DNA of 29,144 nucleotides. Source: a virus. The notes under the pieces were generated by a model. It made no database searches. It saw only the letters and a list, made by a program, of their open reading frames with translations, and was not told the origin of the DNA. The translations under genes were made by a program, and so were the position numbers. Of this stretch, positions 3,978 to 29,144 are shown in pieces. Location: the IMG/VR virus record IMGVR_UViG_3300028392_000232, positions 1 through 29,144 of that record, one strand, 5' to 3'. Every line of letters begins with the position of its first letter. The stretch's first letter is position 1.

Positions 3978-4181
3978 TCAGAACGTCGGCACCATGCCGG
4001 TCCTTGAAGGTGTTTGTGGTTTGGCCGCGAGTTGCTTGATGACGGTTTTCAGGTCGAACCTGACGAACGCATGGCGGTCGATGTCGGCGGTGATCAGCCC
4101 CTTGCGCTTCCAGCGCAGCACGACTTGCGGCGACATCCTGAGTTCGGCTGCGACCTCGGCGGCGGTGAGGAGCTGTTTCAT
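3978..4181 (-). CDS. MerR/excisionase-type helix-turn-helix protein
   Basis: 67 aa from ATG 4181, two nucleotides after the stop of the ribbon-helix-helix-like gene. The first 40 residues are a typical HTH_17 domain: LLTAAEVAAELRMSPQVVLRWKRKGLI, then a wing with HAFVRFDLKTVIKQL. Such domains occur in excisionases (Xis/Cox), AlpA-type regulators and small phage activators. Lying beside attP and the integrase, it is the best candidate for the recombination directionality factor, though a Cro/CII-like transcription role fits as well. The C-terminal 20 residues are probably unstructured. The longer reading from 4403 would run through the upstream gene in another frame and is not supported. Confidence 0.75.
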   Translation of the reverse strand: MKQLLTAAEVAAELRMSPQVVLRWKRKGLITADIDRHAFVRFDLKTVIKQLAAKPQTPSRTGMVPTF

Positions 4182-4183
4182 GG

Positions 4184-4387
4184 TTAAACAGAGTCGGTCG
4201 TTGCGAGCATGGGCGATGTCACCTTGAACTCTCCAGATTCCAGTTTCGCCAGTCCGTCGCGGATCAGAATCCGGGTCAGGTTGGTGGGGGTCGTTCCGGC
4301 GATGCCCGCTTGGGCGTCGAGGGTTTTTTTGTCTTCGTAGAGATCCACGCAGACCCTTCCGTTCGGATTGCTTTTTCGTTTGGCCAT
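4184..4387 (-). CDS. Ribbon-helix-helix-like small regulator (first early gene)
   Basis: 67 aa from ATG 4387 (MAKRKSNPNG); a GGAAAG lies about 8 nt upstream, one of the few plausible ribosome sites in this genome. The pattern is basic N-terminus, one beta strand (GRVCVDLYED), then two helices (TLDAQAGIAG and TTPTNLTRILIRDGLAKLESG), the order of Arc/CopG/MetJ ribbon-helix-helix DNA-binding proteins. It is the first gene of the leftward operon and faces the XRE repressor across a 78-nt control region. That position is where a Cro-like regulator would be expected. An upstream extension to 4435 would read through the operator and is unlikely. Confidence 0.65.
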   Translation of the reverse strand: MAKRKSNPNGRVCVDLYEDKKTLDAQAGIAGTTPTNLTRILIRDGLAKLESGEFKVTSPMLATTDSV

Positions 4388-4465
4388 GCGAAAGACTTTC
4401 CAATTTTGGAAACCGACGTAAAGAAAAACTTTCAAAAAAGAGAAACTTTGTTATATTGGAGAGCT
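4388..4465. promoter_or_regulatory. Divergent early/repressor control region
   Basis: An AT-rich 78-nt spacer separates the leftward early operon from the rightward repressor gene. A rightward promoter can be proposed with -35 TTTCAA (4430-4435) and -10 TATATT (4452-4457), 16-nt spacer, which would put the start almost on the repressor ATG (a nearly leaderless mRNA). A leftward promoter can be proposed with -35 TTGGTC (4477-4472) and -10 TATAAC (4455-4450). Both are read by eye and overlap each other. Confidence 0.4.
4397..4412. promoter_or_regulatory. Palindromic operator candidate
   Basis: TTTCCAA-TT-TTGGAAA is a perfect 7-bp inverted repeat with a 2-bp centre, lying between the early operon start and the repressor gene. 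Its size and place fit a dimeric XRE repressor or Cro-like site. Related TTCC...GGAA dyads occur within the repressor gene at 4593-4614 and 4676-4697. Confidence 0.6.
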
Positions 4466-4930
4466 ATGAATGACCAAACTGAGAAACAACGGATTGCCGG
4501 GTCGATACTCCCAAACATCGTGCAGGCCTTTAGAAACAAGGGATTATCACAGGCCCATCTGGCGAAGTCGCTAGGGAAAAGCGAGGCGTGGGTTTCCAAA
4601 CTTTTGTCTGGAAAACAGAAGTCGGTGGACGAAAAAACCTTCCGAAAACTGGAAATCACGCTCGAAATCGACTCGTTCCAGTTAGCGAAAACTGGAAATA
4701 TCTCCCCGCTCGCGGCCCAGATCGCCGCGCTGGTCGATGCCGACCCGATCTTTGCGAAGCTCTCCCTCTGCGCGCGGGAGGCGATCATAGGGGCAAGAGC
4801 CACATTCACGCCCCGCTACGTCCCTACGGATGAAATGGCCGGGCTTGGGAAGAAGATCATCGACATCATCCAGTCCAACCCAGACAAGCCGGGGAAAGTG
4901 GCGAAGCTCGTCCTGCAACTTTTAGCGTGA
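4466..4930 (+). CDS. XRE-family phage repressor (CI-like)
   Basis: 154 aa from ATG 4466, preceded by GGAGAG four to five bases upstream, so this gene does have a ribosome site. Residues about 8-66 form an XRE/CI-type HTH: IVQAFRNKGLSQAHLAKSLG, then the recognition helix KSEAWVSKLLSGK, then KTFRKLEITLEI. The C-terminal half (residues 75-154) is helical and lacks the Ser/Lys catalytic dyad of a LexA-like self-cleaving domain, so DNA-damage autocleavage is not expected. It is transcribed away from the early operon and is the likely lysogeny repressor of the switch at 4388-4465. The longer reading from 4310 crosses the operator and the opposing gene and is rejected. Confidence 0.8.
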   Translation: MNDQTEKQRIAGSILPNIVQAFRNKGLSQAHLAKSLGKSEAWVSKLLSGKQKSVDEKTFRKLEITLEIDSFQLAKTGNISPLAAQIAALVDADPIFAKLSLCAREAIIGARATFTPRYVPTDEMAGLGKKIIDIIQSNPDKPGKVAKLVLQLLA

Positions 4931-4949
4931 TGAGGCGATAAGAGGGCGA
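4929..4949 (+). repeat. attP-flanking direct repeat, left copy
   Basis: GATGAGGCGATAAGAGGGCG with upstream TTTTAGCGT nearly repeats the sequence at 5101-5119. It starts at the end of the repressor gene and lies about 50 bp left of the att core. It is a candidate arm-type binding site for integrase or excisionase. Confidence 0.55.
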
Positions 4950-4998
4950 TTTCCCACCAAGCAACAAAAACACCTACGGGCATATAGGCCACTCGGCC

Positions 4999-5044
4999 AT
5001 TCGTAATGAATAGGTCGTCGGTTCAATTCCGACCAGCGGCTCCA
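4999..5044 (+). other. attP core: 3' half of a tRNA-Thr(CGU) gene
   Basis: The block reads as the 3' part of a tRNA. It has an anticodon loop TTCGTAA (anticodon CGU, Thr), the 3' anticodon-stem strand TGAAT, a variable loop, a perfect T-arm stem GTCGG/CCGAC around TTCAATT, the 3' acceptor strand CAGCGGC, discriminator T and encoded CCA. Upstream there is no matching 5' acceptor or D-arm, and the bases before the loop cannot pair with TGAAT, so it is not a functional tRNA. A tRNA 3' fragment directly before an integrase gene is the usual form of a phage attachment site that restores the host tRNA on integration. Confidence 0.8.
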
Positions 5045-5100
5045 TAACTCCTTGATTTATCGTTACCATGCTTTACTTGTTTTTACCCCTTTTTTAACGC

Positions 5101-5119
5101 GATGGGGCGATAAGGGCGA
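5101..5119 (+). repeat. attP-flanking direct repeat, right copy
   Basis: GATGGGGCGATAAGGGCGA, preceded by TTTTTTAACGC, matches the copy at 4929-4949 with two substitutions or small gaps. It lies 8 bp before the integrase ATG and covers its only possible ribosome site, so integrase or excisionase binding here could also regulate int. Confidence 0.55.
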
Positions 5120-5126
5120 CAATGTT

Positions 5127-6179
5127 ATGGCTAAAAGACCGGACTTCATTCCTCTCGAAACTCCCCGAGGCTGGTGCGTGAACGTGCCAGCCTCGATGAC
5201 GGCGAGCGGTGCGCGGCGTCGGAAGTATTTCCCGACGCTAGTGAAGGCTCAGAAGTTCTCAGCGAGCGTGCGTGCCAGTCACGCCGCCGGTGTGCGTGGG
5301 TCGATGATCTCCGCGTCCCTTGCGCTCCAGGCGGCGGAGGCGGAGCGGGTTTTGGCTGGCAGCGGCGTGACAATCGTTGAGGCGGCGCGGATGGCGGTTG
5401 CCAAGCTGGGTGGTAATGAGTCGAGGGAGACGTTCGGAGAGCGGTATGCGCGGGCATTGCTGGCCAATGAAAATACTTGGAGTGCCATCTACTCGAACCA
5501 GATGGCCGCGCTGACAAGGTGGGTTCCTGCATCTTTCATGGATCGTGTCTGCGGAGGAATTGATCGCGCTGTCATTGAATCGGCATGTCGGGAGATGCAG
5601 CCGACGCTCAAACAATCATCGCTCGACATGAAGGCGTCGCGGATACTTGCGATCATCGGATTTCGGCCGCGTCACCGTAAATCCACGGACATCTCGATCC
5701 TGTCTGTCGCTCAGTGCGCGAAACTCCTGCGCGTCTGCGAGCGCGTGGAGGAGCGGCGGGTGGTCGCTCTGTTGTTGTTCTCCGGCATCAGGCCGGACTC
5801 GGAGAACGGCGAGATAGGCAGGCTCGAATGGAGCGCGGTGAAGGATGACTACATCGACATTTCCCCCGCTGTCTCGAAGACCTCATCCGACCGTCATATC
5901 CCGATCACGCCACGGCTGCGCCGACTGATTAAGGGCCACCCGAAAGACGGTCCCGTCTGTCCGTCCGGCTGGCGGCGGGCATGGCAGCGCATCCGGCGCG
6001 ACGCGGGTATCGCGGAATTGAGCGATGTTTGCCGCCACACGTTCGCGTCGAACTTTCTCGAATGGAAAGGTTCCGACTCCTGCAAGGCCGCGATGGGCCA
6101 CACGGCGGGAAGCACCGTGCTCTTCCGCCACTACGCCCGCGCCATCAAGAAGGATGCCGGCGAGAAGTTTTTCAGATGA
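5127..6179 (+). CDS. int: Tyrosine recombinase, phage integrase
   Basis: 350 aa from ATG 5127. Residues 80-180 look like the SAM-like core-binding domain, and residues 185-350 the catalytic domain. Catalytic residues readable are Arg222 (SGIRPD), Lys251 (SKTSSDRH), Arg303 (CRHTF), His325 (MGHTAG) and the nucleophile Tyr336 (FRHYA). The first His of the box II HxxR motif is replaced by Asp300. The protein should join attP at 4999-5044 to a tRNA-Thr gene. A TTG-started version from 5052 would translate through the attP flank and repeat, so the ATG is preferred. The stop overlaps the next gene's start (ATGA), which couples the second HTH protein to int. Confidence 0.92.
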   Translation: MAKRPDFIPLETPRGWCVNVPASMTASGARRRKYFPTLVKAQKFSASVRASHAAGVRGSMISASLALQAAEAERVLAGSGVTIVEAARMAVAKLGGNESRETFGERYARALLANENTWSAIYSNQMAALTRWVPASFMDRVCGGIDRAVIESACREMQPTLKQSSLDMKASRILAIIGFRPRHRKSTDISILSVAQCAKLLRVCERVEERRVVALLLFSGIRPDSENGEIGRLEWSAVKDDYIDISPAVSKTSSDRHIPITPRLRRLIKGHPKDGPVCPSGWRRAWQRIRRDAGIAELSDVCRHTFASNFLEWKGSDSCKAAMGHTAGSTVLFRHYARAIKKDAGEKFFR

Positions 6180-6589
6180 ATCCACAACCCACCACCACCA
6201 TGACTGAACCACAGAAATTTGCAGCCAAGCTCCATGCCGCCCTTGTCGAGCGCGGGTGGAGCCAGTCCGAGCTGGCACGCCGCGCCGGGTTGAGGCGCGA
6301 TGTCATCTCAACTTGCTGCCGGGCGGCTTCGCTGCCGTCGCGGTCGAGCCTGTTGAAAATTGCCAAGGCACTGGGCGGGTCGCCCGCCGAGCTGCTGGAT
6401 GGCAGTTTGCCGTCGCTTGAATTGCCGACAGCCTCACCGGACCCCAAGCCGAAACTTGCTCCTCGTCCGCCGGGCGGTGGTGAGATTCATGCGGAGGATG
6501 GCGGCATCCGGCTGCGGATCGACCAGCGCGTCAGCGTGGAACAGGCGATGAGCATCCTTTCGATCCTGTCATTGAAACCGGATGCGTGA
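6176..6589 (+). CDS. XRE-family HTH protein coupled to integrase
   Basis: 137 aa from ATG 6176, overlapping the integrase stop by ATGA; an internal ATG at 6200 is possible. Residues about 12-70 make an XRE HTH: FAAKLHAALVERGWSQSELARRAGLRRDVISTCCRA, then SLLKIAKALGGSPAELL. A Pro-rich linker (about residues 80-105) leads to a small C-terminal domain with RLRIDQRVSVEQAMSILSIL, perhaps for dimerisation. Linked to int, it may control integration or excision, or be a second immunity regulator. Its 3' end overlaps the 3' end of the opposing endolysin gene by 21 bp, so the early-plus and late-minus transcripts collide here. Confidence 0.75.
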   Translation: MNPQPTTTMTEPQKFAAKLHAALVERGWSQSELARRAGLRRDVISTCCRAASLPSRSSLLKIAKALGGSPAELLDGSLPSLELPTASPDPKPKLAPRPPGGGEIHAEDGGIRLRIDQRVSVEQAMSILSILSLKPDA

Positions 6590-7049: not shown

Positions 7050-10000
7050 TCAGAAGCCTGTTGGTTTTTTCTGCATGGGTCCGCCCTGCTTCATCGGCGC
7101 GCCGGCCACCGCCTTGACCATCGCTTCCCTCATGCCAGGGTGGTTGAACGCTTGGATCGCCAGCGCGGGGATCGCGTAGCCGGGCATGGTGGCGAACAAC
7201 GAGTTCGCGATGGGCTTCGCCGCCACGTCGTAGAGCGACCTCGCTGTCTTGCGCTCGTGCGTGTTGGTGTTCGGCGAGTCCTGCGCTCCGCCCGTGCCGA
7301 TGAGCTGAGCCACCGTCGATGATGCCGAGCCGAGGGACGGACCCAGCAGGCGCACCGCTGGGTCTCCGCCGTGTCGCGCGCCGGTCATCATGTTGTAGAG
7401 GATGTCGTAGCCGCCGAAGATGTTGGCCCGTGTCGCTGTCGAAAGCAGGCGCATTTTTGCGATGTCCGCCGGGGTCTTCCGCTCGTCCTGCATCCGGGCG
7501 GGGTCGGAGAACAGGTTCTCACGGATCACTTGCAGACCGTATTGAGCCACGCCGATGACAGCGGCGGCCTTGAGCGTGTCGCCGACCATCTGTGTCCGCT
7601 CCGCGCCGGAAAGTTTCTCCGTCGCGCCATCGACCAGCGCCTCTCCTTTGATAGCCGTCTTCATCAGACGGTAGTGGCGGGACAGCACTTGGTCCTGGAA
7701 GGCGAACAGGAAGGATTGGAACGCATAGAACATGCTTCCGACTGGAGTGCTTCCCCAGCGTGGCCTGGAACCTCGGGTGCCGGTCAGAGACCCACCGGAC
7801 GACTTGACGAGGTGCATGGCGTCCCGATACATCTTCGCCTCCGGCGTGTCTGCGGTGAGCAGTCCCACCTTGTCGTTGGACTTCGCGAGGTCGTCGGTGA
7901 ACTTCAGCATCGCTGGGATGTCTTTGCCGGAGATGCCGATCTCGTTGAGTGCCTTGCCGGCGGTGGTCTTGTATTTTCCGCCAGCCGCCCGCAATTCAAG
8001 CTGGCTGCGGATGAAGCTGTGGGTCATCTCGCCGGATACCGCGTGGGTCGCGTTGGTGAGCGCCGTGAGCAGCGTCTTGGTGTGCAGCAGTGCCGTCAGC
8101 TCCCCGCCCTTGCCTTCCCACAGGTCGCCGCTCAGGAAGCGGTTCGAGGCGAGGATCGAGTTGAAGCCGTCCTCGCTCGCGCCCATCAGGTTGGAGACGA
8201 TGCGACCCTCGTCGGGTCCGAGACCGCGCATCTCGCGGACCATCTTGCGGGCGATGTTCAGGTAGATGTGGCCGGTCTTCATCAGTTGTCCGGTCCTCAG
8301 CGCGATGAGCGCGGGTTCGCCGCCGGATGATAGCGTCGCCCGCGCGAGGTAGGTCATCTGCCCGTGAAGGTGCGCGATGCCGAGTGCCTTGCGGAGCACC
8401 GGGTTGGCGTGGCTCCCTCCGAGGGAGTAGAAATCCTTGAGGAGAGTGGCGGCCATCGGAACCATGTCCGAGTTACCCTCGTCGATCAGGTCCTGCCGAA
8501 GCTTTTTCCATTTCGCGAGCGGGTCGATCTCGCCTGTCTGCATGGGTTTCCCCTGCCCATCGAGGGCAGGCCCGGACAACGACTTCGCGACGGCGGCACC
8601 GCGCACCGCGTCGGCGATCTCTTGTCTGAGGATATCGTTCGGGTCGCGGCGGTAGAACTTGCCGAGAAGCTGGTCCGCCTCGGGTCCGAACTCGCGGCTC
8701 TTGGAGGAGTTCGGGTTGCCGTTGTTGTGGCTGAACAGGTCGTTGCCGTCCGAGGTGATCCCGATTTGGTCTGCCTCGATGTTGGTCATGTATTTCCTCG
8801 CGCTGTCTGCGGCGTCGCGTCCTGCGATCTCTGACAGGTCCGTCTTGATCGCGGCCAGCCGCGCCTTGTCCTTGACCGGATCGAGGCCTGCGGCCTCGGC
8901 GTTGAGCTTTGCCGTCTCCGCGCGCCATTTCGCCTTGTAGGCGTTGGCTGCCTGCTTCACGAACTCCTCCGGGTTGCCGAGGATCGTCGGACGGTCGAGA
9001 ATCCGCCGCATCGTGCGAGGGCCGGCGTCGCCCACCTCCATGCCGGAGTCCCGCATGTGCTTGAGCAGGTCCTTGCGTAGCTCGACGATTGACTCGACGG
9101 CGCGCTTCAACTCCGGCTGGTTGGCAAGCTCGTGGTCGCGGCTGGCGTCGGTCACATGGTCGCCCACGCGCTCCATGAACGCCTTGCGCTCGCCGCGCGG
9201 CATCTTGTTGAGCAGCGGCGCAAGCTCGTGGTTGGCGCGGTCGAGCTGGTTGGCGAAACGCTTGATGTCGATGTCCATCCGCAGGTCGTCGGAGACGCGG
9301 TGAACGCCGTCTGCGCCCTTGGCCAGACCGACAAGATCCTCCGTGAAGCGGGCCAGCGCGGTGCTCTTGTTGCCGGTGATGTTGCCTTCCGCCAGGTGCC
9401 GGAAAGTATTGCCGATCCCGGTCATGAAGTTGGCGTGGATCTTGGTGAGCGTCTGCTTGGTGGCCGTGATGCCCGCGCCCTTGGTGATCGAGTCGGAGAG
9501 TTTGCGAACCCCGTCCACGGCGGCGTCGCTCCACTCGCCCCACTCGCGCTGGCTGGCGGTGGTCCGCGACAGGTGGGTGTCGCGGGTAAAAAGCATGTCG
9601 TTGAAAATCTTGTCGCCGTTCGCCTTGATGTAGGGCGCGTGGTCGGGGAAGCGGTCCGCAAGCGCGCGGGTCAGGTCTTGCACGCTGGGGGTCTTGCCCT
9701 GCGCGGCGAGTTCCTCCGCGATCTTCGGCATCTCGTGGATGAGCTTCGCATCGCGCTCGCCCATGTATCGCTGGTGCTCCACCGACTTGGCGATGAGCGC
9801 AGCCTTGATCGTTGCCTTCTCCTCCTTGGCGAGATTACGAGATTGTTCGATGTGGGCGAGTCCCGCCTTGACTGCCTTGCCGATGGACACACCGGCTTCG
9901 AGACCCTTGACCACGATGTCGAGCGCGGCCTGGTATGCCTGCGCGCCGAGAATGTCGATGGGCATCGAGTTCATCCGCCCGGAGTTCTTCTCCTTGTTGA

Positions 10001-13000
10001 TCCAGTCCTGCACGTCATTGCTGTGCGCCCTGAGTCCGTCGATGAGTGATTTCTGCTGTGGCGCGTCCCCGCGCTGATTGAATAATGGCGTGTCGCCCGC
10101 GGTGGGGTCGAGCATGTCCGCCGTGGTGTCGCCGAGCGTGCCGGTCATCCGCGCTTTCCGCAGACGCTCAATCTTCTGCGCGTCGGTCTCGACGGGCGCG
10201 GCTTTCGCCCGCGCCTCGGCGGCGGCCGCGAACGCCGCGTTCTCCGCCTTGATCTCGGCGTCGCTGGTATGAGCTTTGAGTGCGAAGTCGTCTGCGGGAT
10301 CAACGTGCCGATATGTGTCACCGTCGAGTTTGTAGCTGTCTGGCAGTTTCATGCCGTAGGAATCAACCGTCTCCTTTGCCACAGGGATCTGAAATCTCTC
10401 GACATCAGACATGATCTTTTGCGCGGCTTTCGCGTGATCCACAGGACGGACAGTTGATGAAAGCTGTCCCTTTTGCTGCGCTCTCAAAATGGATTCCATC
10501 GAATGGCCAGCGATGCCGCCTTCTGCCTCAGTCACTGCACTCGATTTTGCGGCGGGGGCTGGCTTCGCTCCATTCTCCGCCGCGTGCTCCGCATTCTGTC
10601 TGGCAGTCATCGCCTTGTCTGCCGCGATGGCGTGCGGTGCCTCCTCCGCGATGCGGGCTTGCGCCTGCGAATCGACGTTCTCCGCCGGGATCGGGTGATC
10701 CAGCGGCACCTCCTGGTCGCCGAACTTGTCGTGGTCGCGCAGCGTGACACTCTCGTCGGTGGCGGCCACCACGCGCAGCGGCTCGCCGTCGATGGTGAGC
10801 GTATCGCCCTTCTCCAGACCAAGCTCGTCGGGTGTCGCCTTGGCGTGTGTCGGCGCGTCCTCCACCGCCTTCTCGAAATCGTAAAACTGCCGCTCAAGGC
10901 GGGCGTAGATCTCCTCAACGGCGTTTGCCTGGGGGCCGTTGTTCTTGTGGATGCTGTCCAGCTCGGCATTGAGATTTGCGTGGAACTCCGGGACAGTCAT
11001 GTCCATTGCCGTCGCCAGCTTGTCCACGCTGAGGGCGAATGGCGACTTGTTGTGCAGCGACCGCAGCGTCGCCGCTGCCAGGTTGCCGCCGGGCGTGTCG
11101 GGGAAATCGCTTGGGCGTGCGGCGTCGTCGCGGGACTCGCCGAATCCATCCGCCACTCTGCGTGACTGGTCGGAGAGCTTTGCCCCGCGCTGGGCGTTGC
11201 GCTCGATCAGTCCCACCGCCTGGTCCTGTGGCGCGAAGCCACCGTTCTGCCGGATGCGGTTGATGGTCTCGAACTCGCCGGAGTTGTGAACCTCGTCCAC
11301 GCGCTTGCCGAGCGCGGTGGCGCGGCTGTCCGGTGCCGGGCCTGCCGCCTCGATCTGGGCGTTGAGAGTGTCGATGCTGGCACGGAGCTTGGTGATTTGC
11401 TCGGGGTCCGCCTTGCCGTTTGCTTCGAGTTTGGCGAGTTGGTTCGTCTTCTTCGCCAGATTCATCTTCGCTACCTTCACGCTGCCCGTGAGCGGCTCGA
11501 TGGCTGTCGGCGGCTCCGGCACTACCGGAGTTTTACCTTGCGCTTGGGGAGGCTCAGGAGCTTGCGGAACGACGCCATCAGGCTGAGTGACCGCGGGTGG
11601 CGTCTCTGCAACTGGCAGCGGTGACACCAGCACTTGTGCTTGTGGGACGACTTCTGCCGGGGCGAGTCCTTGCGGGTTCGGCTCATTGACGGGGATGGGG
11701 GTGGGTTCGACGGGTGCTTGCGTGTCGGTGAAAAACTGCCGCCCCACCTTGATTTTCGCGGGGCCATCGACCACCGGCCCCAGCGGACCATCGACGACGG
11801 GCCGATCCACGGACGGGCCTGTGATTGCCGGGCCTTGCTCTGTCTGGAGTGCTTGCGGTGTCTGCCGCGCCGCCTCCACGATTGGAGTGTCACCCATTAC
11901 CGGACCTTGGACGAGCGGACCAAGCGGCCCAAGCGGGCCGTCCATCACGGGGCGGTCGATCTGCGGGCCGCGGACTTGCGGCGGATCGACGGGGAGTGGT
12001 CCCTGCCATCCCTCGCGGGGCGGGGTGGCTCCCACGGTCGGGATGCTTGGACCATTGACTGTCGGACCTTGGACCTGCGGCCCCTCGACCACCGGACCGC
12101 GCACCATTGGACCGAAGACTTGCGGGCCGCCATCGAAAGTAAGCGGCTCGCTGTTGGCGATTGGTCGGGGAATTTCGAGCGGTTGCCCCGTCTTGAGACG
12201 GTTGGCCAGCGCGTTCGCCTCCATGATCGCGAATGCCCGCGACGGACTCTGCCCGTCGCCCGTCATCGGCATGACCACGGCCGCATTTGTTTCGATGGGA
12301 CCACCACCGGCCCTGACCGGCGAACCCGTTGCAGGATCTCCCTGCACACCATGTTGCGTATCCGTGGAAATCAATGTCGGATGGAGCATCTTGCCGAACC
12401 TGTTGTGCTCGTTGAACACGGCACCCACCAGCCCGTCGCCAATGACGTGCAGCGGGTCGATGGGTTGCCCCTGCGCGGCGGACAAGCCGGCGGACAAGCC
12501 CGCGCCGATGCCTGCGCCCGCGCCGATGTTGACCCTGGCGGCGGTCATGGCCGCCTGCTCCGCCTCTGTGGCGACCCTGCCGAGCGGGCCAATCGCCTTG
12601 CCGAAGGTCGAGACCCCCGGTTTCATCGTCACCACCATCGGGGCCATGCCGCCGAGGTAGCTGGCGACCGGGTGCGCCTGCTCGTCGAGCTGCCGTTGCT
12701 GCTCGCGCTCCGGGGTCATCGGGTAAGCCGCCTCCTCGCCCTTGCCGCCGATATAGCCGCCGCCGAGTCCGGCGATCAGCGGGATCGCGAGACCGGAGAG
12801 TCCAGCCGTCTCCGGCATGAGCGCCGTTGCGATGGCGGTTGCCGCCGTCGCGCCGACGCCAGCACCGATATTGTCGCGGAATCCTCTTGCAAACGAACCG
12901 AGCGCCGATGGCTGCGGGACAGGCGCGTGGAGCGCGTTCATCCGCGCGAGGTTGTCTGCGCTGAGTGGATGGGAGTAGTCCATCCCGGTAGGCTTCGGGG

Positions 13001-13094
13001 AATTGCGCTGGATCGCGGTTGAAATATCGGCGTCAGTCATCCCGTCTGGAAATGACACTTGGCCCATTCCGGGGACTTCAATGATCTGAGGCAT
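7050..13094 (-). CDS. Giant internal virion / DNA-ejection protein (2014 aa)
   Basis: One uninterrupted frame from ATG 13094. It opens with PQIIEVPGMGQVSFPDGMTDADI, a short N-terminal module common on phage ejection proteins. A Gly/Ala-rich hydrophobic stretch (75-117, GGGYIGGKGEEAAYPMTPE) follows, able to insert in a membrane. Residues about 315-450 are a proline-glycine repeat region of GP-x-V-x-GP units. A helical linker sits near 540-590 and long mixed helical domains run to the C-terminus, with an aromatic FYAFQSFLFAFQDQ segment near 1810. Giant proteins at this place, after smaller ejection proteins, resemble T7 gp16-like or large polyvalent phage proteins and probably enter the cell with the DNA. 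No catalytic motif is confidently seen. Confidence 0.75.
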   Translation of the reverse strand: MPQIIEVPGMGQVSFPDGMTDADISTAIQRNSPKPTGMDYSHPLSADNLARMNALHAPVPQPSALGSFARGFRDNIGAGVGATAATAIATALMPETAGLSGLAIPLIAGLGGGYIGGKGEEAAYPMTPEREQQRQLDEQAHPVASYLGGMAPMVVTMKPGVSTFGKAIGPLGRVATEAEQAAMTAARVNIGAGAGIGAGLSAGLSAAQGQPIDPLHVIGDGLVGAVFNEHNRFGKMLHPTLISTDTQHGVQGDPATGSPVRAGGGPIETNAAVVMPMTGDGQSPSRAFAIMEANALANRLKTGQPLEIPRPIANSEPLTFDGGPQVFGPMVRGPVVEGPQVQGPTVNGPSIPTVGATPPREGWQGPLPVDPPQVRGPQIDRPVMDGPLGPLGPLVQGPVMGDTPIVEAARQTPQALQTEQGPAITGPSVDRPVVDGPLGPVVDGPAKIKVGRQFFTDTQAPVEPTPIPVNEPNPQGLAPAEVVPQAQVLVSPLPVAETPPAVTQPDGVVPQAPEPPQAQGKTPVVPEPPTAIEPLTGSVKVAKMNLAKKTNQLAKLEANGKADPEQITKLRASIDTLNAQIEAAGPAPDSRATALGKRVDEVHNSGEFETINRIRQNGGFAPQDQAVGLIERNAQRGAKLSDQSRRVADGFGESRDDAARPSDFPDTPGGNLAAATLRSLHNKSPFALSVDKLATAMDMTVPEFHANLNAELDSIHKNNGPQANAVEEIYARLERQFYDFEKAVEDAPTHAKATPDELGLEKGDTLTIDGEPLRVVAATDESVTLRDHDKFGDQEVPLDHPIPAENVDSQAQARIAEEAPHAIAADKAMTARQNAEHAAENGAKPAPAAKSSAVTEAEGGIAGHSMESILRAQQKGQLSSTVRPVDHAKAAQKIMSDVERFQIPVAKETVDSYGMKLPDSYKLDGDTYRHVDPADDFALKAHTSDAEIKAENAAFAAAAEARAKAAPVETDAQKIERLRKARMTGTLGDTTADMLDPTAGDTPLFNQRGDAPQQKSLIDGLRAHSNDVQDWINKEKNSGRMNSMPIDILGAQAYQAALDIVVKGLEAGVSIGKAVKAGLAHIEQSRNLAKEEKATIKAALIAKSVEHQRYMGERDAKLIHEMPKIAEELAAQGKTPSVQDLTRALADRFPDHAPYIKANGDKIFNDMLFTRDTHLSRTTASQREWGEWSDAAVDGVRKLSDSITKGAGITATKQTLTKIHANFMTGIGNTFRHLAEGNITGNKSTALARFTEDLVGLAKGADGVHRVSDDLRMDIDIKRFANQLDRANHELAPLLNKMPRGERKAFMERVGDHVTDASRDHELANQPELKRAVESIVELRKDLLKHMRDSGMEVGDAGPRTMRRILDRPTILGNPEEFVKQAANAYKAKWRAETAKLNAEAAGLDPVKDKARLAAIKTDLSEIAGRDAADSARKYMTNIEADQIGITSDGNDLFSHNNGNPNSSKSREFGPEADQLLGKFYRRDPNDILRQEIADAVRGAAVAKSLSGPALDGQGKPMQTGEIDPLAKWKKLRQDLIDEGNSDMVPMAATLLKDFYSLGGSHANPVLRKALGIAHLHGQMTYLARATLSSGGEPALIALRTGQLMKTGHIYLNIARKMVREMRGLGPDEGRIVSNLMGASEDGFNSILASNRFLSGDLWEGKGGELTALLHTKTLLTALTNATHAVSGEMTHSFIRSQLELRAAGGKYKTTAGKALNEIGISGKDIPAMLKFTDDLAKSNDKVGLLTADTPEAKMYRDAMHLVKSSGGSLTGTRGSRPRWGSTPVGSMFYAFQSFLFAFQDQVLSRHYRLMKTAIKGEALVDGATEKLSGAERTQMVGDTLKAAAVIGVAQYGLQVIRENLFSDPARMQDERKTPADIAKMRLLSTATRANIFGGYDILYNMMTGARHGGDPAVRLLGPSLGSASSTVAQLIGTGGAQDSPNTNTHERKTARSLYDVAAKPIANSLFATMPGYAIPALAIQAFNHPGMREAMVKAVAGAPMKQGGPMQKKPTGF
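11750..12140 (-). repeat. GP-rich degenerate repeat region inside giant virion protein
   Basis: About a dozen short units of the form GPxVxGP, GPQxxGP or DRPVMDGPLGP are encoded here (residues about 318-448). The DNA repeats are degenerate. They also create long stop-free antisense frames, which are not genes. Confidence 0.75.
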
Positions 13095-24374: not shown

Positions 24375-25964
24375 TCAGAATCCCGCGGCGGCCCTGACGT
24401 TCGCCTTCTGCCGGTCCTGCGCCTTCGAGCGGGCCTTGACCCACGCGAGCGTGCCGCTCTGCGGCTGAACCGACTTGCGGCTCGGCGCGGTGGCCGCGGT
24501 CATCCGGCCCAGCCCCATGCCGATGTAGGCGATGGTGTCCACGAAGTCATCGTGCTTGCCCGCCGGGAACGAGAGCATCTGCGCCCGCGCCGCCTCCCAC
24601 CACGGCGCGAAGCCGGGGAACCGCACCTTGCCCATGCTCATCCGCCCGCGGATCGACTGCGCCCGCGTCTGCTTGTCCTTCACCGGCACCACCTCGTCGA
24701 TGGCGCAATAGACGCTCTCCTCCTGCATCCGCTTCCGCAGGAACGGCGCGATGGACTTGGAGATGTGGCCGCGCTCCGCCCACCAGATGAGCGGCTTGTG
24801 GCGGGCCATCATGTCGAGCATCGCGTCCACCACGTCGTCCGTCTGCGCCCTGCGCCACCAGACATCCGGCAAGATCCAGATCGTCCCCTGCTCGTCCACG
24901 CCCACCGGCAGGAGCACGGTCGGGTCGCGGTCCTGCGCCACCGAGACGGCGTGGTCGCTCGCGCAGTAGTAGCGGAGGTTCTTCGGTAGATCCTCCGGCT
25001 GGTAGGTGGTCATCCACTCGCGCTTGAAAAAGTCGCCGTCCTCCGGCGCCGGCCGCCCTTGGTAGAGCGCCGAGAAACCCCGCGGATTGAGCCGTCGCTG
25101 GGAGTTTAGAAACTCCTTGGTGATCCGCTCCGGCCACAGCGGATCGTCCTTCTCGCGGCCCATGATGTCGTTGTCCTCGGCTAGCGCCGGGAACGAGATG
25201 ATCTTCCACTGCTTCGCCTCCTCCGCGTTGTAGTGCTGGTTGCCGGGGTCGGTCAGGCGTCCCACTAGGTCGTCCTCGTGCCAGCGGGTCATGATGATGA
25301 CCACGCGGCCCATGCCGCCCATCAGACGGGTCATGGCGACATCGGTGAACCAGCTCCACAGCTTCTCGCGCACAATCGCGCTGTCCGCGTCCTCGCGGTC
25401 CTTCACCGGATCGTCGATCAAAAGCACGTCCGCGCCCCGTCCCGTGAGCGCGCCGCCCGCACCGACAAAGACTCCCAGCCCGCCCTGCTCGGTCTGCACC
25501 CGGTCTGAGGCTGCGCCACCTTTCCGCAGCGAGCACATGGGGAAAACCTGCTGGTAGGCCGGCGTCTGCATGTAGGACCGCACCTCCCGGCCGAAATCCT
25601 CCGCCATCGTCGCCGAGTAGGACGCCACGATCATCTGCCGGTAGGGGTCTCGCCCCATGAACCACGCGGGGAACGCCTTCGAGGCGATCTGCGACTTGCC
25701 GTGCCGCGGTGGCAGCGTGATGATGAGCCGGGGCATGTTCCCCTTGTCCACCTCCTCCAGCGCCGCCGCGAGAACCTGGTGGTGCTTGGCCACGATGTAG
25801 CGCGACAACTGCACGTCGTCAGGGTCGTTCGGGTCCGGCATCATCAGCCGAACGAACTCGATCAGCGAGTCGTGCGCCCGCTTCGCCGCAAGCAGCCGGT
25901 GGGTCGCCTTGAGCTGCAATTCCGCCTGCTCCAGCGGCGTCAGTTCCTTGCGCTTGGCGGACAT
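24375..25964 (-). CDS. terL: Terminase large subunit
   Basis: 529 aa from ATG 25964, one base after the tail fibre stop. ATPase motifs are clear: Walker A LPPRHGKS (84-91), Walker B DVLLIDDP (179-186) and a coupling motif IIMTRWHEDD (223-232). The nuclease half has the RNase H-like acidic residues Asp337 (CASDHAV), Glu397 (WWAERGH) and Asp472/473/476 (HDDFVDT). It packages concatemeric DNA into the procapsid through the portal and cuts it. No small terminase is recognisable nearby; one of the small genes beyond 28.8 kb or outside the window may serve. Confidence 0.93.
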   Translation of the reverse strand: MSAKRKELTPLEQAELQLKATHRLLAAKRAHDSLIEFVRLMMPDPNDPDDVQLSRYIVAKHHQVLAAALEEVDKGNMPRLIITLPPRHGKSQIASKAFPAWFMGRDPYRQMIVASYSATMAEDFGREVRSYMQTPAYQQVFPMCSLRKGGAASDRVQTEQGGLGVFVGAGGALTGRGADVLLIDDPVKDREDADSAIVREKLWSWFTDVAMTRLMGGMGRVVIIMTRWHEDDLVGRLTDPGNQHYNAEEAKQWKIISFPALAEDNDIMGREKDDPLWPERITKEFLNSQRRLNPRGFSALYQGRPAPEDGDFFKREWMTTYQPEDLPKNLRYYCASDHAVSVAQDRDPTVLLPVGVDEQGTIWILPDVWWRRAQTDDVVDAMLDMMARHKPLIWWAERGHISKSIAPFLRKRMQEESVYCAIDEVVPVKDKQTRAQSIRGRMSMGKVRFPGFAPWWEAARAQMLSFPAGKHDDFVDTIAYIGMGLGRMTAATAPSRKSVQPQSGTLAWVKARSKAQDRQKANVRAAAGF

Positions 25965-25965
25965 T

Positions 25966-27495
25966 TCATCTAATGACTGAGAACGCCCCGAACGTCGGGA
26001 TATAGGTTCCGTAGGCGTTGGAGAAATTTACTGTGAAACCAGTGGTCGCTATTGAATTTATGGTTATTCCACCACCTAACGATTGATCCGCTCCTGTCAC
26101 CATATAGTTCGCATCAGGCATTGCGGTAGCGAATAACACATTGAAACCTGATGTGGATGTGGTGTCAACGCGGGTGATGGATATAATGTTGCCGGATGCG
26201 TTAATCAGGCGGGCGTTGGCGACAGTGGATGGTGTATTGAATGTGTCTTTCGCACCATTGAAGCGTGCCCACGCCCGGATGCCGTATATTGGCGCGTCGC
26301 CGGTCTGCCTGCCGCTCAGTTTTGTGGCTGTGACGTTGCCGTCCTTGATCTTGGCCGTCTCCACCGCGTCGGTGGCCAGCTTCGCCACTGTGACGTTGCC
26401 GTCCTTGATCTTGGCTGTCTCAACCGCGTCGGTGGCCAGCTTCGCCACTGTGACGTTGCCGTCCTTGATCTTGGCTGTCTCAACCGCGTCGGTGGCCAGC
26501 TTCGCCACTGTGACGTTGCCATCCTTGATCTTGGCTGTCTCAACCGCGTCGGTGGCCAGCTTCCCGTTGTCCACCGCTCCCGGCTGGATGTTCGCTGTCT
26601 GCACCGCGTTTGTCGCCAGCTTCGTGCTGTCGATGGCCCCGCCTGCGATCTTTTCGCCGGTCACTGCCAGTGCGGCGAGCTTCGCCGTCGTCACGTTGAG
26701 ATCCTTGATCTTCGCTGTTTCCACCGCGTCGGTGGCAATTTTCAGCGCCGTTACCCCGCCGTCCGCCAGCTTGCCGGTCGTCACGTTGAGGTCGATGATG
26801 GCGTTCGTTCCCACCGAGTTGTTCGGGATCGTCACCACGCTGTTGATGATTTCCGCAGACACGCCGATGACCACCTCGATGTTGTTCGTGCCGAATGCCG
26901 GCGCGCTCACGAACGTCAATACCGCCGGAGAGGTGCCGACGATGGAATAGGTGCTCTTCTTCTGATACACGCCGGCCACATAGACCTGCGTGTTGTTCGC
27001 CGCGGCGGGGTTCTTCGTCAGGCTGAACGCTGTCTGCGATCCGGTGCCGCTGAAGGTATTCACCACCAGCGTGTCCGTCGTCGGGCGGTAGCCGAGGATC
27101 GCCCATACGCCAGATGCGTAATCAGTGATGAAACTGCCGCTGCTGGTGTGCGCGAATCCGCAGAGATACGGGTAGTTGTCGGTGTTGGAGATGATGATGT
27201 CTCCCGGTGAATAGCCCGTCCCGGTGTTCCACTGCCCGAGGTAGTTCGACCCAGCGGCTGCCAGCGCGGTCCGAAAGTCCTCCGACATGGCGGGAAGACC
27301 GACCACGCCGTTCCTGATCGCGCCGTCGTCGCGTTGCAACTCGGCGAGCCGGGCCTGTGTCTCCGTGAGTGCGGTTGCGATCTCAGTGAACTCGCTGTCG
27401 AGTTGTGCCCCAGGCAGTCCCGAAGTCGTGATCGGCGTTGCTGCAAGGGTGGCGTAGCTTGAGTTTTTCGTGTAGGGTGTGGGTGCGGCGCTCAT
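25966..27495 (-). CDS. Tail fibre with tandem shaft repeats
   Basis: 509 aa from ATG 27495. The N-terminus (GLPGAQLDSEFTEIATAL, then LAELQRDDG) has the L-D-x-E-F pattern of podovirus fibre attachment regions. Residues 70-200 include YLGQWNTGTGYSPGDII, a carbohydrate-binding-like module. Residues about 215-390 are a series of near 10- and 20-residue repeats of the type KLATDAVETAKIKDGNVT, expected to form a trimeric beta-helical shaft. The last 110 residues are a compact beta domain (WARFNGAKDTFNTPS, NYMVTGADQSLGGG), likely the receptor-binding tip. It should determine adsorption. Its place between the lysis-type genes and terL is unusual for a fibre. Confidence 0.82.
   Translation of the reverse strand: MSAAPTPYTKNSSYATLAATPITTSGLPGAQLDSEFTEIATALTETQARLAELQRDDGAIRNGVVGLPAMSEDFRTALAAAGSNYLGQWNTGTGYSPGDIIISNTDNYPYLCGFAHTSSGSFITDYASGVWAILGYRPTTDTLVVNTFSGTGSQTAFSLTKNPAAANNTQVYVAGVYQKKSTYSIVGTSPAVLTFVSAPAFGTNNIEVVIGVSAEIINSVVTIPNNSVGTNAIIDLNVTTGKLADGGVTALKIATDAVETAKIKDLNVTTAKLAALAVTGEKIAGGAIDSTKLATNAVQTANIQPGAVDNGKLATDAVETAKIKDGNVTVAKLATDAVETAKIKDGNVTVAKLATDAVETAKIKDGNVTVAKLATDAVETAKIKDGNVTATKLSGRQTGDAPIYGIRAWARFNGAKDTFNTPSTVANARLINASGNIISITRVDTTSTSGFNVLFATAMPDANYMVTGADQSLGGGITINSIATTGFTVNFSNAYGTYIPTFGAFSVIR
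26329..26562 (-). repeat. Four 60-bp tandem repeats in fibre shaft
   Basis: Exact 60-bp period units start at 26341, 26401, 26461 and 26521. The second and third are identical, the first and fourth differ by a few bases, and the last is cut at 26562. Each encodes 20 residues (core AKLATDAVETAKIKDG). Diverged units continue to about 26790. Confidence 0.92.
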
Positions 27496-28818: not shown

Positions 28819-29144
28819 TCAGACGTTGAGCGCGGCGGCTTGGATGAACATCGCGTCCACTTGCTCGCTGGTGAGCGCGAGGGCAGTGGCTAGCGCGGTG
28901 ACAGTTGCTCCATGGCGGACCAGTGGCGCACCACCCTCCCATGCGGCGAGGACGACGGTTTTTTGCGGTTCGCTCATCGCGGCCATGATCGCGGCGACTT
29001 GAGACGTTAGCCCAGCGAGTTCGATCACCGCTTTAGCCCGCCAGTTGGCGATTTCGGTCGGCACCTTCGGCCCGCGCACTGGCCGAGGCTTGAGCGCGGT
29101 GTAGCCATCCAGCGTCTCGGCGACGGTGAAGCTTGGGCCTTGCG
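28819..29144 (-). CDS. Hypothetical phage protein, 5' end beyond window
   Basis: The frame is open to the right edge, so the start is outside. A GTG at 29079 exists but conserved-looking sequence (PSFTVAETLDGYTALKP) continues upstream of it. The visible 108 residues include VPTEIANWRAKAVIELAGL, EPQKTVVLAAWEGGAPLVRHG and ALTSEQVDAMFIQAAAL. This last W-E-G-x-L-V-R plus L-T-x-E-Q-V-D-x-M-F pattern is known to me from small phage proteins located next to lysis or tail genes, function unknown. It ends 4 nt before the next start. Confidence 0.65.
   Translation of the reverse strand, partial: QGPSFTVAETLDGYTALKPRPVRGPKVPTEIANWRAKAVIELAGLTSQVAAIMAAMSEPQKTVVLAAWEGGAPLVRHGATVTALATALALTSEQVDAMFIQAAALNV

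Follow-up and report, generated by a model that had tools for sequence, protein, structure and literature searches.

A probable attP in a tRNA-Thr(CGU) 3′ half, flanked by two pairs of putative arm-type sites, in a phage assigned to Verrucomicrobiota

Sequence comparison indicated with high confidence that positions 4929–5126 of the window (the whole analysed stretch, 29,144 nt of an IMG/VR virus record) represent the attP of a temperate tailed Verrucomicrobiota phage, whose integrase would recombine the anticodon loops and for which the flanking repeats would serve as two pairs of arm-type sites. Systems of this kind, in which a lambda-type integrase acts on a tRNA-gene attP with paired arm-type sites, are already well known. 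The present case adds a host group, a crossover interval, a spacing rule and a candidate specificity residue, so that a guess about two repeats becomes a quantitative intasome model with a testable specificity residue. An uncultured phage is tied to a host group in this way, in a phylum whose phages are poorly known outside those of Akkermansia muciniphila, and the site together with its integrase could serve integration tools for Verrucomicrobiota.

The tRNA core, its host group and the crossover interval

As its common core, the site contains a tRNA-Thr(CGU) 3′ half on the plus strand (4998–5044), which extends from the anticodon stem to the CCA end (5042–5044) and includes the anticodon loop TTCGTAA (5000–5006), the putative strand-exchange region. 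Positions 4999–5044 read ATTCGTAATGAATAGGTCGTCGGTTCAATTCCGACCAGCGGCTCCA; since C4998 also matches the host gene, the shared block comprises 47 identical nucleotides rather than 46. The 5′ half of the tRNA gene is absent. ARAGORN detected no complete tRNA in the 29,144-nt window, indicating that only the 3′ half is present, and an Rfam search of 4850–5200 returned weak, sub-threshold matches only. The core lies 82 bp upstream of the integrase gene (5127–6179). This position just before a tyrosine integrase, together with the unique direct repeats that bracket the core, pointed to an attP.

To find the corresponding host gene, the core was searched as an exact 46-nt match against bacteria and archaea, with one genome per species. 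All 20 contigs recovered belonged to Verrucomicrobiota (most of them labelled Akkermansiaceae, besides Akkermansia, Verrucomicrobiaceae and others). According to ARAGORN, 18 of them carry a complete tRNA-Thr(CGT) gene consisting of GCCGCTGTAGCTCAGGGGTAGAGCAATTC followed by the core, whereas of the other two one is truncated at the contig end (L002) and one represents a junction (L004). As is characteristic of a tRNA-gene attP, the core matches the 3′ portion of a host tRNA gene exactly. The search for a bacterial tRNA-Thr sharing the core had been set beforehand as a refutation test, and its outcome supports the initial annotation, which had placed an attP in a tRNA-Thr(CGU) 3′ half. The accompanying expectation that the core would name the host held for a Verrucomicrobiota group but not for a single species. 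Given the exact core in these contigs, the phage most likely infects a member of the core-carrying group. In the viral contig set, the exact core pattern gave no match, the phage's own record included (the set may omit that record), and a looser pattern gave 21 matches. The attP core of L022 (4880–4925) differs in two respects: its variable region is longer (AGGATAAAC), and the CCA end is not encoded. The closest relative of the large terminase of the window (24375–25964) is that of Microcystis phage Mae-Yong1326-1 (52% identity over 99% of the query), although attP points to Verrucomicrobiota.

Integrated relatives revealed the fate of the tRNA gene. In L047, whose integrase is 68% identical, a complete tRNA-Thr is followed by GGCGATAAGGGCGA and then by int, an arrangement that corresponds to attL. 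Another contig (G139:C346, L077) contains both ends of an 8.4-kb integrated element. Its attL consists of a complete tRNA with a 3′ half unlike the usual one, and its attR of the displaced usual 3′ half. The two ends are continuously identical only over CATTCGTAATGAGC and then diverge; this shared block suggests that strand exchange occurs within the anticodon stem-loop. A tRNA restored at one junction was observed in relatives (L047 and L049/L077), not in this exact phage. We thus propose that the integrase encoded from 5127 would recombine the loop of the phage 3′ half with the same loop of the host gene. The host would retain its own 5′ half and gain the identical 3′ half of the phage, so that the tRNA gene would be restored at the int-side junction (attL), and attR would be marked by the displaced host 3′ half.

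Further family members showed variations of this arrangement. Two segments of one MAG (L004:3631–3786 and L003:3800–3942) resemble the attL-like and attR-like ends of a third element, in which the core is reversed relative to int, whereas neither the orientation of the arm pairs towards int nor their 11/9 spacing is altered. When an empty site for this element was sought via L007, the flanks matched on the 5′ side only. By eye, the neighbours of the element appear satellite-like, with replication-type and small DNA-binding proteins. More distant integrases of the family are found at tRNA-Thr(TGT) and tRNA-Asn genes and beside other tRNA fragments. In contig G103:C36 (L052 / L078:1054–1215 and 9365–9439), a family integrase follows the 5′ half of a tRNA-Thr(CGT), which is interrupted immediately downstream of TTCGTAATG and has no 3′ half, and a complete tRNA-Thr(CGT) is located 8.3 kb from the broken half. 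The broken tRNA is either a far junction or a tRNA that was not rebuilt, and tRNA-dependent lysogeny is not established for G103.

Anatomy and spacing of the flanking repeats

The direct repeats reported on either side of the core (4929–4949 and 5101–5119) proved to be real and far beyond chance. Their gapped alignment (TTTTAGCGTGATGAGGCGATAAGAGGGCGA / TTTTAACGCGATGGGGCGATA--AGGGCGA) scored 34, compared with a maximum of 25 in 2000 first-order shuffles of both flanks, and GGCGATAAG is unique to the repeats, with no other occurrence on either strand of the window. The motif TTTT-A-GC, described as preceding both copies, does not apply to the right one, which is preceded by TTTTAACGC rather than TTTTAGC; the T-run before the repeat is not kept in L024. 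Each repeat contains two GGCGA units on the plus strand. In the distal (left) arm (4934–4949), the units at 4934–4938 and 4945–4949 are 11 bp apart and lie 66 and 55 bp upstream of the anticodon loop. In the proximal (right) arm (5106–5119), the units at 5106–5110 and 5115–5119 are 9 bp apart and lie 106 and 115 bp downstream of the loop's first base. The 2-bp length difference between the repeats results from this spacing of 11 bp on the left and 9 bp on the right.

Fourteen integrase relatives from IMG/VR likewise have a tRNA fragment upstream of int and repeats on both sides. A scan of 121 spacing combinations (spacings of 6 to 16) across ten distinct attPs identified 11/9 as the best pair, with 8 summed mismatches compared with 24 for the next. 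Nine of the ten attPs showed at most one mismatch to the 11/9 rule (shuffle p = 0.003–0.01 for each of the nine), the exception being L022 with 11/10, while 13 host tRNA-Thr loci treated in the same way as a control gave 2–6 mismatches. The distances to the anticodon loop are nearly fixed as well, with the distal pair at about –66 to –68 and the proximal pair at +105 to +107 or roughly a helical turn beyond. Departures in spacing were found in L046 and L102 (10/11) and in L048, L049, L051 and L053 (proximal spacing of 10). The unit sequence varies between phages (GGCGA, GGCA, GTCA, GTCC) and matches within each phage.

The initial annotation had put forward the repeats as arm-type sites by inference, and the spacing rule and the covariation described below now lend comparative support to this idea. 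A heterobivalent (lambda-type) organization, in which arm-type sites distinct from the core-type sites flank the core, is indicated here by sequence anatomy and covariation only. According to our model, the repeats represent two pairs of arm-type sites that would be bound by the β-β-β-α N-domain of the integrase. The four units, all in direct orientation and placed about 66 bp before and about 106 bp after the anticodon loop, would hold the intasome together.

The candidate reader of the units

The gene at 5127–6179 (plus strand) encodes a tyrosine integrase of 350 aa (PF00589, E = 1.4e-6; phrog_1 integrase, E = 5e-15; profile match to P2 Int 5c6k, E = 1e-12). The PF00589 match exceeded its cut-off and R222, K251, R303, H304, H325 and Y336 are invariant in 15 relatives, as expected of a catalytic tyrosine recombinase; in the catalytic HxxR motif, Asp (D300) stands in place of His, a substitution shared by nearly all relatives. 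AlphaFold predicted an N-domain with the three β strands and helix of an arm-binding domain (strands 10–12, 15–20 and 31–35, helix 38–53; block pLDDT 66–90) besides core-binding and catalytic domains, in a model with a low pTM of 0.48 and modest Foldseek TM-scores. Three regulatory genes are located nearby. An excisionase-like HTH_17 protein of 67 aa, a candidate RDF, is encoded at 3978–4181 on the minus strand (HTH_17 below the curated cut-off; phrog_66 excisionase, E = 7e-6). An HTH_3-like regulator of 154 aa is encoded at 4466–4930 on the plus strand, and the left repeat (from 4929) begins within its stop codon. Downstream of int, a Cro/C1-type HTH regulator is encoded on the plus strand (6200–6589; HTH_3, E = 3e-9).

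A comparison of L024 and L092 was informative with respect to the protein that reads the units. The two phages possess sister integrases (support 99/97) and attP regions that are otherwise closely alike, but the units are GGCAA/GGCAA and GGCAA/GGCAC in L092 and GGCGC/GGCGA and GGCGA/GGCGA in L024. Differences between them amount to 1/70 residues in the excisionase, 4/154 in the HTH protein, 14/57 in the Int N-domain and 44/350 in the whole integrase. A change of units with a nearly constant excisionase and HTH protein and a changed Int N-domain suggested that the integrase is most likely the reader. Immediately before each pair, both phages carry an additional GCGATG that is unchanged between them and is thus probably not an Int unit. 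How an arm-binding domain shifts its DNA specificity could readily be tested with the pair L024/L092.

Residue 34 is the sole column of the 350 that fully separates the phages by unit type: Tyr is present in 8/8 GGCGA phages and in 0/14 GGCA phages, which have Phe, Thr or Val instead. It is located in strand β-3 of the predicted N-domain and may act as the base reader. The association comprises 2–3 independent changes, too few for significance (sign test on independent pairs), and a split of sequence identity by arm type (50% vs. 43% for the N-domain, 53% vs. 52% for the catalytic domain) is suggestive only. We tentatively propose a Verrucomicrobiota integrase family with near-rigid attP geometry at anticodon loops (distal 11 bp at about –66; proximal 9 bp at +106 or one helical turn further), whose arm specificity could be switched via β-3, with Tyr or Phe at residue 34 reading G or A as the fourth base of every unit and with L024/L092 as a natural specificity-swap pair. 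In our estimation, this proposal falls slightly short of an even chance.

RDF sites are usually confined to one arm, unlike the unit pairs observed here, which occupy both arms. This difference, together with the single excisionase substitution that accompanies the altered units of L024 and L092 (as opposed to 14/57 in the Int N-domain), renders it improbable that the repeats are binding sites of the excisionase or RDF and not of the integrase. Binding of the 3978–4181 protein to the repeats, as envisaged earlier, is likewise disfavoured, even though RDF sites often consist of direct repeats spaced by about a helical turn (PMC7498355) and most relatives carry a homologous excisionase gene near int.

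We consider it very unlikely that the repeats are operators through which the HTH regulator (4466–4930) controls int. The adjacent position of its gene, which ends within the left repeat, and the location of the right repeat in front of int would fit this role. However, among the relatives checked the gene was detected only in L022, L024, L025, L092 and L103, and unit pairs are also present in relatives without it. Furthermore, none of the differences between the L092 and L024 proteins falls in the matched HTH segment (23–69), yet the units changed.

The right repeat had also been described as overlapping the ribosome-binding region of int (ATG at 5127). This is correct for the window, where 7 bp separate the end of the proximal pair from the ATG and the pair contains AAGGG, a plausible Shine-Dalgarno sequence about 10 nt upstream of the ATG. 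The overlap is shared by close relatives of the phage but is not general: where the units are TGGCA or GTCA, relatives lack a Shine-Dalgarno overlap but retain the pair at its usual distance from the anticodon loop. Since a matching pair also exists across the core, where there is no gene start, there is scant probability that the proximal pair is mainly a ribosome-binding site or regulator of int without a role in the intasome. As an arm-type site, the proximal pair may nonetheless contribute to regulation. After integration, the tRNA, the proximal arm and int would follow each other in one direction, similar to attL of KplE1, where arm-type sites lie between the tRNA and intS, and the integrases of KplE1 and other prophages arranged in this way repress their own genes (PMC2951348). 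Position and precedent make it plausible that binding of the integrase to the proximal pair, 7 bp from the start codon, also lowers int expression here, whereas negative autoregulation is established for KplE1; a scan of 4300–5300 found no sigma-70-like promoter.

Attachment site versus prophage border, and known systems

The reading of the site as an attP and not a prophage border was corroborated by the presence of both arms, the absence of the 5′ half and the surrounding phage genes (regulator, excisionase, endolysin, capsid, portal and terminase). In contrast, the integrated relative L047 has a complete tRNA, and its distal arm is replaced by other DNA. Although the record is classed as linear and may be a fragment, the exact 46-nt host match, the two arms, the missing 5′ half and an identical layout in more than ten distinct phages leave a negligible chance that 4998–5044 is a prophage border or chance tRNA fragment and no working attP. 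Circular closure of the window was considered because the end ORFs (1–700 and 28819–29142) join in frame, but the left-end protein has a 97% relative (L084) whose sequence differs beyond WKTA; closure is thus doubtful and is not claimed.

The attP resembles several described systems. In Cluster K mycobacteriophages (CrimD, Pixie), a tRNA/tmRNA core likewise lies upstream of int between putative arm-site pairs, and arm-sequence variation was associated with two N-terminal residues of the integrase (17 and 19) by an argument similar to ours (PMC3203893). These phages have actinobacterial hosts, and P3/P4 of CrimD are inverted whereas all four units are direct here; we have not seen the 11/9 spacing described for Cluster K sites (PMC3203893). 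Other mycobacteriophage attPs that overlap tRNA genes have common cores of 30–45 bp and share with the present site a core formed by a tRNA 3′ half, a tRNA rebuilt at one junction and flanking arm-site pairs (PMC10865867). They differ in host phylum and integrase family, and in the tRNA-dependent lysogeny reported there, which the phage of the window would not need, as its tRNA would be restored. A crossover centred on the tRNA anticodon loop is also found at class A (anticodon-centred) tDNA sites of genomic islands (Islander, PMC4383910), which are mapped islands as opposed to the free phage record analysed here. Lambda integrase (1z1g, 1z1b) has the N-terminal, core-binding and catalytic domains predicted here (Foldseek E ~1e-4), but shares 14% identity, retains the His that corresponds to D300, and uses an attB outside tRNA genes.

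Two further ORFs of the window contain repeats. A single ORF of 2014 aa (7050–13094), located between the endolysin and the structural genes, has GPxVxGP-type repeats and no PHROG match; its product is possibly an ejected virion protein. A tail-fibre-like ORF (25966–27495) contains tandem LATDAVETAKIKDGNVTVAK repeats.
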